Position numbers and translations under genes: made by a program. DNA of 64,000 nucleotides from Candidatus Polarisedimenticolaceae bacterium. GTDB taxonomy: Bacteria > Pseudomonadota > Gammaproteobacteria > Chromatiales > Chromatiaceae. Positions 40,748 to 59,458 of this stretch are shown piece by piece. Each line of letters begins with the position of its first letter. Within the stretch, counting starts at the first letter, position 1. The DNA lies in NCBI GenBank assembly GCA_021648685.1, contig JAKISI010000004.1, positions 1 to 64,000 on the forward strand, written 5' to 3'. The notes under the pieces were generated by a model that was given only the letters and a program-made list of their open reading frames with translations, ran no database searches and was not told the origin of the DNA.

Positions 40748-40953
40748 GATAAGCGGTGCCCCCCACCTGTGTCGTCGCGAACCTTTGTTCTTGAACCTGT
40801 AGGTTCAAGTGGGATCATCAAGAACGCATCAGGCTTCCCACTACGAGGCGGGCATGCACAACAGCGCTGCAATCATAATCCCAAGGCATCAATTAGGCTC
40901 AAGAAAATACCCAGCCACTAACGGGCACTGCAGGGGACACCGCTACTGTAGGC
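40748..40953 (-). ncRNA. ssrS: 6S RNA
   Basis: Read on the minus strand, GCGGTGTCCCC near the 5' end pairs with GGGGGGCACCGC near the 3' end to form the closing stem. The 3' half contains CTTGAACCTACAGGTTCAAG, the helix shared with E. coli 6S RNA, followed by a CGACGACACA stretch also found there. It sits between zapA and 5-FCL, the conserved place of ssrS. 6S RNA binds sigma-70 RNA polymerase as a promoter mimic. Ends are estimated to within about 10 nt. Confidence 0.88.
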
Positions 40954-55832: not shown

Positions 55833-56078
55833 CTCCCCGAAAAATCTCTAGCACGCTGTTAGCTTCATAATTCGAAAGACTCAAATGGAACCTAGGAGGC
55901 TGTCCGAGAATAGAAACCCTGCTACCAAAAAAGCGGGCACAAGTGCGGAAAAAGCAATGACAACCTGTAGCTAACAATGAATATTCATCACTTAAAACAC
56001 CTATTATCCATATAAGTATCAAAGGGTTATGATATAATACTGAGGCGATAAACCGCAGAAATCAACTTAAATCAAACC

Positions 56079-57587
56079 ATGACTATCCCTTTCAAAAAAA
56101 GCCCAACGGAATTCAACCAACATCTGTTGTTTCCAAGCAATATATTTGATCTCCTCCCAAAAGATCATGAATGCTACCTCTACATGGATCTGTTTAAACA
56201 ACTGGATACATCTGCCCTGGAAAGAACATTCAGTATCAAAGGACAAAATGCCTACCATCCAAAGCTGATTGTATCCATACTTATCTATGCCTACAGCCGT
56301 GGTGTATTCAGCTCACGAGAAATAGAAAAGCGCTGTAATGAAGACCTTTCCTTCATGTTTATTGCGCAGATGAATTGCCCTAACTTTCGTGTGCTGAGTG
56401 ACTTTAGAAAAAATAACCCTGAGTTTTTCCACGACTGTTTTAAGCAAACGGTTAAGCTGGCTATAGAGCTTGAGCTTGCCTCACTGGGGCACATCAGCCT
56501 TGATGGCTCAAAATTCAAAGCAGACAGTTCCAAACACAAAGCAATGACCTATAAACGCTTAAAGGAAAAAGAGTTGGAGTTGAGCAAAGAGATTGACGAG
56601 TTAATTGAAAAAGCCAGCAGCTGTGATGAGGAAGAAGATCAATCATATAAGGAGCAGACGGGCTATGAAATCCCTGAGGATCTAAAATTCAAGGAAGCGC
56701 GTTTAGCACGCATCAAAGAGGCTAAAGAGGCACTGGAGAAGCGTGAGCAAATCCTAAATCCCGGCAAGGAGATTGAAGATAAAAAGCAGATTAGCTTTGC
56801 GGATACAGATGCTCGCATCATGGGAAAGAACGGAAACTTTGACTATCAATATAATGGCCAGATCAGTGTAGATGAAGATCATCAAATCATTATTGGACAG
56901 CACCTCAGCCAAAATGCGAATGATAAAAACGAAGTGACCCCAGCGCTACAGAGCATCCAGGATGCGACCGGCAGGTTACCAGACACTATGAGCGCCGATA
57001 ATGGCTATATGTCTGGGCACAACCTTGAAGCATTTGAGGCCATTTCAGTTGATGTATATATTGCAACAGATAAAGGTGAAAAGACAAGCAAGATTCCTTT
57101 AGATGAATCAGATCGAAAACTTGTCAAAGCAGACTTTGAATATGATGAGGAAAAAGACTGCTTTATTTGCCCAGGAAAACAAGAGCTGGTGTTGAAGCGC
57201 CAATCAAAGGACGGTAAAAAAACCTATCAAGGAGACGCCATAATTTGTGAAGGTTGCCTATATAAAAGTAGGTGCTGTCAATCCAGCAAAGGAGAGGCGC
57301 GGACAATCCAAACTGATGACAAAGAACCATTACGGCAACAAATGAATGCCAAGATGGAAAAAGATGAATCAAAAGAAATCTATAAAAAACGCAAAGTGAT
57401 TGTAGAGCCTGTGTTTGGCCATATCAAAAACAGTGGGTTTCGTCGTTTCAGCGTGAGAGGAAAAGAGAAGGTGGCGGGTGAGTTTTCATTGGTGTGTGCC
57501 ACACACAATCTTAAAAAAATAGCTCGATCAATGCTCAATGGGTTAATCCGCCCAGAATTTGGAAATTTAAGCGCCATGTATAACTAA
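56079..57587 (+). CDS. IS1182-family transposase
   Basis: The 502-residue DDE transposase is uninterrupted. The N-terminal region with FPSNIFDLLPKDHECYLYMD is typical for IS1182. Catalytic acidic residues are seen in HISLDGSKFKAD, MSADNGYMSG and the C-terminal VIVEPVFGHIKNSGFRRFSV. A cysteine cluster (ICEGCLYKSRCC, near residue 395) lies before the last motif, and an acidic/lysine coiled region (about 158-240) is inserted after the first. Confidence 0.93.
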   Translation: MTIPFKKSPTEFNQHLLFPSNIFDLLPKDHECYLYMDLFKQLDTSALERTFSIKGQNAYHPKLIVSILIYAYSRGVFSSREIEKRCNEDLSFMFIAQMNCPNFRVLSDFRKNNPEFFHDCFKQTVKLAIELELASLGHISLDGSKFKADSSKHKAMTYKRLKEKELELSKEIDELIEKASSCDEEEDQSYKEQTGYEIPEDLKFKEARLARIKEAKEALEKREQILNPGKEIEDKKQISFADTDARIMGKNGNFDYQYNGQISVDEDHQIIIGQHLSQNANDKNEVTPALQSIQDATGRLPDTMSADNGYMSGHNLEAFEAISVDVYIATDKGEKTSKIPLDESDRKLVKADFEYDEEKDCFICPGKQELVLKRQSKDGKKTYQGDAIICEGCLYKSRCCQSSKGEARTIQTDDKEPLRQQMNAKMEKDESKEIYKKRKVIVEPVFGHIKNSGFRRFSVRGKEKVAGEFSLVCATHNLKKIARSMLNGLIRPEFGNLSAMYN

Positions 57588-57624
57588 AGGGAGAAATGGA
57601 TGCAAATAGCGAAAAAAACGGGCG

Positions 57625-57650
57625 ATTTAGAGGCTGTTGAGCCTCTAAAT
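57625..57650. terminator. Hairpin within the IS1182-type element
   Basis: The 11-bp perfect stem (ATTTAGAGGCT and its complement) has a GTTG loop and lies about 37 bp after the transposase stop. It may terminate the transposase transcript; there is no long T-tract. Confidence 0.6.
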
Positions 57651-57764
57651 AGTAATAAGAATCATTACTGCCAGTGAATGATAGGCATTCTCAATAAATG
57701 CAGCTCATTAGCTCTTAATGTTTACCTATTCTCGGACAGCCTCCTAGTTACTGGGGGATAAGAG

Positions 57765-58205
57765 ATGAAATATCGGTATGGTAGTCATACGGCTTATGCG
57801 ATTGAGTATCACTTTGTTTGGGTAACGAAATATCGCTATAAAGTGCTGGTAGGAGATGTTGGTAGTCGGGTACGGGAGTTAGTACGGCAAACGTGCGATG
57901 CATTTGAGATTAAGATATTGAAGGGAGTGGTGAGCAAGGATCACGTGCATATTTTGGTATCAGCGCCACCGAATATGGCGCCCAGTGAGATAATGCGTAG
58001 GATAAAAGGCCGTACGTCGAGGAAGTTGTTTGAGGAGTTTCCGAAGCTAAAGAAGCGTTACTGGGGTCGGCACTTCTGGGCAAGAGGATATTTTTGTGCG
58101 ACGGTGGGGCAGATGACGGAAGAGATGATCCAAGATTACTTGGAACATCACTTTGAGCCGAAGCCAAGTACGGATTTTAAAATGGAAGTAGAGCCGGATG
58201 AATAA
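57765..58205 (+). CDS. IS200/IS605-type Y1 transposase TnpA
   Basis: The 146-residue HUH transposase has the paired histidines in VSKDHVHILVS and the catalytic tyrosine in MTEEMIQDYLEHH near residue 128. The opening AYAIEYHFVWVTKYRYKVL is the IS200 signature. It moves single-stranded DNA by recognising end hairpins. The usual YxxxQ position holds YLEHH. No TnpB gene accompanies it. Confidence 0.92.
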   Translation: MKYRYGSHTAYAIEYHFVWVTKYRYKVLVGDVGSRVRELVRQTCDAFEIKILKGVVSKDHVHILVSAPPNMAPSEIMRRIKGRTSRKLFEEFPKLKKRYWGRHFWARGYFCATVGQMTEEMIQDYLEHHFEPKPSTDFKMEVEPDE

Positions 58206-58424
58206 ACGGGGCTATCCGCCCCGTATCCGGACTTTCAGTCCGAAAATCTAACCCACCGGTCTTTAGCCGGTGGTTGTTGAGTTTGCATGATTAACCGAGT
58301 GACGCAAGACTCAACGACTATGGACTAAAAGTCCATAGGTTGTTTTCAGAACGACTGAAAGTCGTTATGTGGTAAAGCAATATATCGCTCCGCGATGCTA
58401 AAGCCTTGCACTGAGAGTGCATGG
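58206..58424 (+). repeat. Array of small hairpins after tnpA
   Basis: Hairpins in order: ACGGGGC-TATCC-GCCCCGT (58206-58224); CGGACT-TTC-AGTCCG (58228-58242); CCACCGG-N7-CCGGTGG (58253-58273); a longer stem GTTGAGT...ACTCAAC (about 58275-58315); CTATGGACT-AAA-AGTCCATAG (58318-58338); AACGACT-GAA-AGTCGTT (58350-58366); ATCGC-TCC-GCGAT (58384-58396); TGCACT-GAG-AGTGCA (58407-58421). Four share an ACT-N3-AGT apex with a variable lower stem. One is probably the right-end recognition hairpin of the IS. Confidence 0.78.
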
Positions 58425-58442
58425 TTTTTACTAGCGTATTGA

Positions 58443-58610
58443 GACAATAAAGACCTGGCCCTTTGCTGTTTCAATCTACTCAATGATCTGCACAATGCCA
58501 TCTGGCAACACTATGAATCTGCATTAGTCCCAATCATCATTGCAGAATATAACCAAGATCCGGACTCTCAATCGGAACGGTCTGACTTCGACGACGATAT
58601 CTCGTTTTAA
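58443..58610 (+). pseudogene. C-terminal fragment of an interrupted gene
   Basis: An open frame of 55 codons without a start begins right after the hairpin array. It reads DLALCCFNLLNDLHNAIWQH followed by YESALVPIIIAEYNQ and an acidic end (SDFDDDISF). The helical pattern and acidic tail look like the end of a real protein of unknown family. The matching 5' part was not found left of the island, so insertion was accompanied by deletion. Confidence 0.5.
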
Positions 58611-58822: not shown

Positions 58823-58891
58823 CTAGAAAAAAAATCTGTAGATTAAGCATCTTAGTCGCCCTCGCTACGGCTTAACTGATTTTTCTAGGAT
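58820..58891. repeat. 72-bp inverted-repeat element
   Basis: The arms ATCCTAGAAAAA (58820-58831) and TTTTTCTAGGAT (58880-58891) are perfect inverses. Partial complementarity continues inward (GATTAAGC against GCTTAAC). It runs into the last codons of the following gene and could be a terminator or a small mobile repeat. Confidence 0.6.
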
Positions 58892-59458
58892 AATGGTGGA
58901 GCGCTTGATATTCTGCCACTCTATGCCCACCGCCCGGCATAGTGTCAGCGTTTCAAGCAGCGCCCGGCGTATCTCAAGATCCTCCGGGGCTTTACAATGC
59001 GCCATGCCACGCTGATCTATGGCCTGGTTGCAGGGGTCTTTGGCACGCTGCTTTTTACCTTCAGCAGCAATGATCTGTTTATGGTAGTAGTTGGACCAGC
59101 CCATTAAGCTGGCAACGGTATTGACGGTGGGAAAGTATATGCAATCAACCAGTGGGCCTCTCTCTGGAAATGGCGGCAGCACCCTGATCTGTGGTTCAAC
59201 CTCACTCACTGAAGCGGCCGTGCCTGTGGAGTGCGGCTGCGGTACCTGCACCTTCCCTGGCTTGGCAGTGGACTCTCCCACCGGAGTGGGGGGCAACACA
59301 GCAACCTCAATATGCTCTTTTGGTTTTTGCACGACAGGTGCGGTGGCGTTCTCGCTCTTCATCGCAAGGTAGAGCCCGGTGGTTGCGGTAATTACCGCAG
59401 CAATTCCGGTGAGTATCCCCGGCATCGAACCCCAAAAGCCTGGGGATTTTTCAGGCAT
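58865..59458 (-). CDS. Hypothetical membrane-anchored protein
   Basis: The 197-residue protein has a short cytoplasmic N-terminus and one transmembrane helix (about 13-32). A proline-rich linker (PPTPVGESTAKPGKVQVPQP) leads to a C-terminal domain with cysteines at LVDCIYFPTVN, KDPCNQAIDQRGMAHC and LTLCRAVG. The four-cysteine pattern suggests disulphides in the periplasm. No family was recognised. Its end lies inside an inverted repeat, so the original C-terminus may have been changed. Confidence 0.62.
   Translation of the reverse strand: MPEKSPGFWGSMPGILTGIAAVITATTGLYLAMKSENATAPVVQKPKEHIEVAVLPPTPVGESTAKPGKVQVPQPHSTGTAASVSEVEPQIRVLPPFPERGPLVDCIYFPTVNTVASLMGWSNYYHKQIIAAEGKKQRAKDPCNQAIDQRGMAHCKAPEDLEIRRALLETLTLCRAVGIEWQNIKRSTIILEKSVKP

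Follow-up and report, generated by a model that had tools for sequence, protein, structure and literature searches.

In the window, i.e. the complete stretch of 64,000 nucleotides that was analysed, a tnpA gene (57765..58205, plus strand) is followed directly by a dense group of small hairpins at 58206-58424. The tnpA gene encodes a 146 amino acid long IS200/IS605 Y1 transposase with the HUH motif DHVH and the catalytic-Tyr motif YLEHH (Y-x3-H). The protein matches Pfam Y1_Tnp (4.9e-46), the NCBIfam IS200/IS605 transposase model (166 bits against a cut-off of 55) and the TnpA structures of IS608 (6e-22) and ISDra2 (3e-27), and it provides the Y1 HUH transposase that characterizes the IS200/IS605 family. 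The motif given for IS200/IS605 subclass 1.1 transposases is Y-x3-Q (PMC6006769), which YLEHH does not match. Different from IS608 and ISDra2, the resident protein carries His instead of Gln four residues after the catalytic Tyr, and this is also the prevailing state among its relatives (His in 93 and Gln in 5 of 98 scored sequences). As judged from these sequences, the exchange is a departure inside the IS200/IS605 family, the models of which are still passed.

On its left side, the tnpA element is cut by a DDE-type IS (55892-57747) with the ends CTAGGAGGCTGTCCGAGAATAG and CTAG at both edges. What is left is a 17-bp left-end stub (57748..57764, plus strand), which abuts the DDE IS end and is devoid of the cleavage site and the left-end hairpin. 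Six other left-end copies in the same genome contain TTTTCCATGCGTAAGGTTTAAACCTTCGCC and a hairpin upstream, and the corresponding part of the window copy was not found when it was sought to the left of the DDE IS. Without a left end, the window copy of tnpA should therefore be immobile itself, at least probably, while its protein could act in trans. The same ends also occur in the genome as many short pairs about 100-165 bp apart. Around the hairpin locus, DNA is shared with congeners only to the right of about 58890. A short palindromic repeat at 58829-58894 (ATCCTAGAAAAA...TTTTTCTAGGAT) has more than 30 matches in one congener (G004) and looks like a separate MITE family.

The earlier note had described a set of hairpins, four of them with a common ACT-N3-AGT apex, and a longer stem within these 219 bp. 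All four apex hairpins are present, with the loops TTC (CGGACTTTCAGTCCG, 58228-58242), AAA (CTATGGACTAAAAGTCCATAG, 58318-58338), GAA (AACGACTGAAAGTCGTT, 58350-58366) and GAG (TGCACTGAGAGTGCA, 58407-58421), and so are further stems at 58206-58224, 58253-58273 and 58384-58396 and the longer stem TTGAGTTTGC + GCAAGACTCAA at about 58277-58314. No other ACT-N3-AGT hairpin with at least two further pairs exists in the 64-kb window, and dinucleotide shuffles predict 0.6 such hairpins over its full length and 0.001 over the 219 bp. Folded as single-stranded DNA, the 219 bp reach -59.3 kcal/mol, compared to -25.7 +/- 3.8 kcal/mol for shuffled sequences (z = -8.8). The hairpins are thus confirmed as real and far above chance. 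They do not form one unit, however, but divide between two elements, the second of which extends to 58447 and adjoins its insertion target at 58448-58451.

Right end of the resident element and an inverted PATE

Comparison of the copies in the own genome assigns 58206-58281 to the IS200-type element with the tnpA stop at 58205, as its right end (RE), because eight copies diverge together after TTGAGT. When a 235-bp stretch at the window was used as query, the only full-length match was the window itself, and seven further strong matches ended at query position 77-81. Over three hairpins and ...GGTGGTTGTTGAGT, the eight copies resemble each other; they share the TTGAGT and diverge completely beyond it, and the tip is directly followed by T in each of them. 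Several contigs of the draft genome start or stop within the same tnpA, in keeping with an IS present in multiple copies. Hairpin 1 of the RE (ACGGGGCTATCCGCCCCGT, 58206..58224, plus strand) begins right behind the tnpA stop codon and is clade-specific; its stem letters vary in relatives and its pairing is retained (ACGCGTCG..CGACGCGT, ACCGGT..ACCGGT). Hairpin 2 (CGGACTTTCAGTCCG, 58228..58242, plus strand) is the leftmost of the four shared-apex hairpins and relatives from several phyla keep it in front of their terminal hairpin. The terminal hairpin (CCACCGGTCTTTAGCCGGTGG, 58253..58273, plus strand) is the expected TnpA-binding hairpin and displays compensatory changes in six of its eight pairs across 42 relatives. 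It is immediately preceded by the putative right guide TAAC (58249..58252, plus strand), the register of which follows the IS608 guide rule (PMC5934647), and succeeded by the tip TTGTTGAG (58274..58281, plus strand), with predicted cleavage after G58281 and T as the next base. At the opposite side of the element, six left-end copies in the own genome share a common start, TTTTCCATGCGTAAGGTTTAAACC and the hairpin TTCGCCTTTCAGGCGAA, behind TTAA or TTGA; one of them has TTCC for TTTC. The fixed short target in front of the six left ends agrees with the 3' insertion typical of the IS200/IS605 family, as does a subterminal hairpin near each end, although the left-end hairpin is seen in the six other copies and is absent from the window copy. 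One additional tnpA copy (L007:900-1500, contig C60 of G000) has an internal deletion and an insert with the inverted ends GGGGCTATGCCATATTGAGTGG / CCACTCGATATGGCATAGCCCC.

The remaining hairpins lie in a 138-bp element on the minus strand (58310..58447), which has an IS200-type left and right end but no tnpA and is delimited by recurrent copies with matching edges. Read along the minus strand, TTTA|TTGTCTCAATACGCTAGTAAAAACC is followed by the left-end hairpin, a short middle part, a two-hairpin RE and TCGTTGAG|T. The left-end hairpin TGCACTCTCAGTGCA is located at 58407..58421, a small internal stem ATCGCGGAGCGAT at 58384..58396, hairpin 2 of the RE (AACGACTTTCAGTCGTT) at 58350..58366, the terminal hairpin (CTATGGACTTTTAGTCCATAG) at 58318..58338 with the guide CAAC at 58339-58342, and the tip TCGTTGAG, placed by end comparison, at 58310..58317. 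Both RE hairpins fall into a single match to an RE covariance model. The left flank TTTA (58448..58451, minus strand) corresponds to the target pattern of other copies: the left end TTG is preceded by TTTA or CTTA in nearly all other PATE-type copies and by AATA in one, and TTTA also precedes the left end in nearly all autonomous relatives.

Palindrome-associated transposable elements (PATEs) are known from Haloquadratum walsbyi and Halanaerobium (PMC3119063, PMC7290912), and on sequence grounds 58310-58447 fits their description. Like these PATEs, it is short, contains neither a transposase nor terminal inverted repeats, and shares near-terminal palindromes with an IS200/IS605 element (PMC3119063, PMC7290912); here the host is gammaproteobacterial, the ends are IS200-type derived and the genome contains no partner TnpA of the same lineage. 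With 138 bp and no ORF of at least 60 amino acids, the element is too short for a transposase. Copies occur at different sites, in contigs C5 and C3 of the own genome, C101 of congener G005 and C103 and C114 of G002, among others. The copy in G005 (L050) is 85% identical over the whole length, retains the small internal stem and has coinciding edges, and it resides at an unrelated site with different flanks. The copies in C3, C103 and C114 are longer relatives whose two ends are of the same type, and G002 contains additional PATE-type left ends. The intergenic region of G002 that is orthologous to the C3 site has no element, consistent with insertion; a base-exact empty-site footprint was sought there and was not obtained, as the flanks are too diverged. 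In two PATE copies of G002 (L205, L206), the element is interrupted at CTAG by ends like those of the DDE-type IS. Another PATE-type right end is located just 3' of a gene and its terminator (L009, C78:42162-42222 of G000); no left end was found for it in the stretch C78:30000-44745, and it is a solo end or a remnant.

The near-terminal palindromes connect the PATE with a tnpA-bearing IS200-type element of the gammaproteobacterium NORP44 (L134), to which 47 of 52 positions of the left end and 48 of 55 positions of the right end are identical. The ends of the resident element match those of the PATE moderately (30/49 and 37/53), and the resident TnpA shares 56% identity with one TnpA of the PATE lineage, which has no TnpA of its own in this genome. 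The 138 bp constitute a complete PATE that has retained, from a related IS200 lineage, only one hairpin of the left end and two of the right end, and TTTA is the target 3' of which it is inserted. This places a PATE, along with its likely parent lineage, in a gammaproteobacterium that belongs to the same family as Thiocystis. An origin in the clade of Thiocystis and L074, the elements of which stack their hairpins, was considered and rejected, because tip and guide are TGAG/CAAC and not TGAT/CATA and because the PATE ends are closer to the lineage of L134, L150 and L161.

The arrangement of the two elements was assessed with the RE covariance model, which was built on the right ends of 42 relatives and includes the RE of the resident tnpA element but not that of the PATE. 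In the window, it returned exactly two full-length matches, which face each other: 58229-58287 on the plus strand (68.6 bits, 2.5e-16) and 58304-58364 on the minus strand (64.6 bits, 3e-15). A third, weak match (14.3 bits) is the left-end hairpin of the PATE, and the whole genome contains 11 strong full-length matches. Between the two ends lie 28 bp of flanking DNA (58282..58309), which are outside the homology of the other copies of both elements. Both tips contain TTGAG and, being inversely oriented, base-pair; the longer stem consists of the two facing RE tips and the TTGC/GCAA of the spacer. With high confidence, the 219 bp are thus a composite of the resident IS200-type RE and an inverted 138-bp PATE, which are arranged tail-to-tail 28 bp apart. 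Each shared-apex hairpin that is conserved in sequence occupies a subterminal position in an IS200-type end, and ACT-N3-AGT represents a variant of the CTT(T)(C)AG apex that the hairpins at both ends of this IS200 group have in common. As the cluster consists of two IS200-type element ends, the shared hairpin tip is an end signature of this transposon group rather than the mark of a new hairpin array or RNA. A puzzling hairpin array is thereby resolved into the ends of two mobile elements of known kinds. The earlier note had named missing further copies and hairpins that are not preserved in related IS copies as observations that would count against it; further copies exist, and the hairpins are kept with compensatory changes in relatives.

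Guide, tip and target

The cleavage tetranucleotide of IS608 pairs with the four nucleotides 5' of the subterminal hairpin to which TnpA is bound (PMC5934647). In 37 REs of the present group, guide base 1 and tip base -3 form a Watson-Crick pair in 22 cases, compared to 11.3 expected (p ~1.5e-4 by shuffling, with kinship ignored). Guide base 4 is accompanied by G in 32 of 33 REs when it is C and by A in three of four when it is T, and the base at +1 after the tip is T in 36 of the 37. This covariation supports cleavage at T-N-A-G|T and, combined with the left-flank data, a putative target TTNA followed by T. Applied to the left-end guide, the IS608 pairing rule gave no clean fit.

The resident element shares several properties with the IS200 group, as represented by IS608 and ISDra2: a Y1 HUH transposase of about 140 amino acids, subterminal hairpins at both ends with a putative guide 5' of the hairpin, 3' insertion at a short T-rich target and the lack of terminal inverted repeats. 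By analogy to IS608 and ISDra2, TnpA would bind the subterminal hairpins when the strand becomes single-stranded, with the cleavage tetranucleotide paired to the four-base guide 5' of each hairpin. TnpA would then cut in front of the left end and behind TTGAG, the element would be excised as a single-stranded circle, and reinsertion would occur 3' of TTNA/TTTA with T following. By the same analogy, the PATE, which has no transposase, would move only if TnpA is supplied in trans.

Other readings of the hairpin series

The earlier note had also considered a structured RNA; formed by the hairpin series, it might be a tnpA 3' UTR, an antisense RNA or a riboregulator. The strong fold and the six terminator-like matches on both strands, compared to 1.0 expected, are in line with such an RNA. 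However, no Rfam family matches the hairpin stretch, the hairpin combination is unique to this locus, and the conserved features, i.e. guide, tip and target, are DNA transposition and cleavage signals. We therefore consider a dedicated RNA very unlikely, although it is possible that single hairpins have weak terminator or mRNA-stabilising side effects.

If all hairpins belonged to the tnpA element, its RE would contain an expanded hairpin stack, as in a sister clade whose REs have about five to eight. Relatives from Thiocystis, Thiosymbion, Desulfobacter and Methyloprofundus do carry hairpin stacks of this kind in the stretch that leads from tnpA to the terminal hairpin, and the hairpins of the locus are indeed subterminal hairpins of IS200-type ends, as the earlier note had proposed for a stack. 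Yet they are distributed over two elements, with three hairpins in the RE of the tnpA element. The seven other RE copies end after hairpin 3 and TTGAGT, the hairpins to the right of 58309 are an opposite-strand RE with its own left end and target, and the right-hand segment is found without the tnpA element in congeners and elsewhere in the own genome. A single stacked RE is thus extremely improbable and is contradicted by the common end of the eight copies.

REP/BIME-type repeats that are mobilised by a RAYT are also hairpin repeats handled by a Y1 transposase, and the palindromic units, the inverted neighbours, the adjoining Y1 transposase and a weak score of the resident TnpA on the REP-transposase model (42.9 bits, with the cut-off at 80) recall them, but this reading is almost certainly wrong, because the transposase lies above the IS200 and below the RAYT cut-off, TAAC and CAAC instead of a GT[A/G]G (GTAG/GTGG) foot precede the terminal hairpins, 11 strong full-length RE matches in the genome are a low copy number, left and right ends are distinct and complete as in an IS and have precise targets, and the model search found no large set (tens to hundreds) of solitary hairpins that share a foot. 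What stands of the REP-like family suggested before is a low-copy, non-autonomous and palindrome-ended repeat; its left and right ends and its target are of the IS type and the GTAG foot is absent.

An additional right-end hairpin in an IS200 subgroup

The locus is ordinary in kind, and only the conserved extra RE hairpin of the IS200 subgroup goes beyond the routine. Different from IS608 and ISDra2, the RE has a conserved second small hairpin and comprises three hairpins in the resident clade; in IS608, a small second hairpin adjoins the left-end hairpin (PMC5934647). Of 80 relatives, 72 have a match to the two-hairpin RE model downstream of their tnpA, about 30 of the 72 having served to build the model and a few matches being partial or cut by a contig end. 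The 80 relatives span Pseudomonadota, Bacteroidota, Cyanobacteriota, Acidobacteriota, Campylobacterota and others. Within the sequences compared, a two-hairpin RE is accordingly the rule in this widespread IS200 subgroup, which is overlooked by the picture of one hairpin per end that the earlier note had taken as ordinary.

In the RE alignment of 42 relatives, compensatory changes are seen in 8 of 13 pairs and 99% of the cells are paired. Hairpin 2 is 96% conserved per column, compared to 72% for the stem of the terminal hairpin, which varies by compensatory change; the value for hairpin 2 is inflated, because the sequences were selected by a pattern that required part of its apex and that left out Bacteroidota versions like AAAGAATTTCATTCTTT. 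In the clade of Thiocystis, Thiosymbion, Desulfobacter and Methyloprofundus, the region from the tnpA stop to the terminal hairpin is occupied by a stack of about five to eight hairpins. Neither an extra RE hairpin nor such stacks were found described in the open-access literature, a scope that leaves most subscription papers and ISfinder outside, and a literature search by hairpin strings returned no relevant paper.

The extra RE hairpin GGACTTTCAGTCC, of which one clade has about five to eight, may serve as a further site for TnpA, as a decoy or as a structure at the 3' end of the mRNA. We tentatively suggest, as a possibility that we rate below even, that it is a distinct functional part of the Y-x3-H subgroup, such as another site for TnpA binding or for regulation, which would determine the choice of the RE hairpin or the frequency of movement. 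Its conservation raises a simple and testable question on recognition by TnpA.

In the stack-clade elements L074:1929-2095, L088, L108, L113, L119 and L121, the apices are GACTTTCAGTC-like and the first hairpin overlaps the stop codon. Elsewhere in the window, a 6S RNA gene is located at 40756-40939 on the minus strand (Rfam RF00013, 89 bits).
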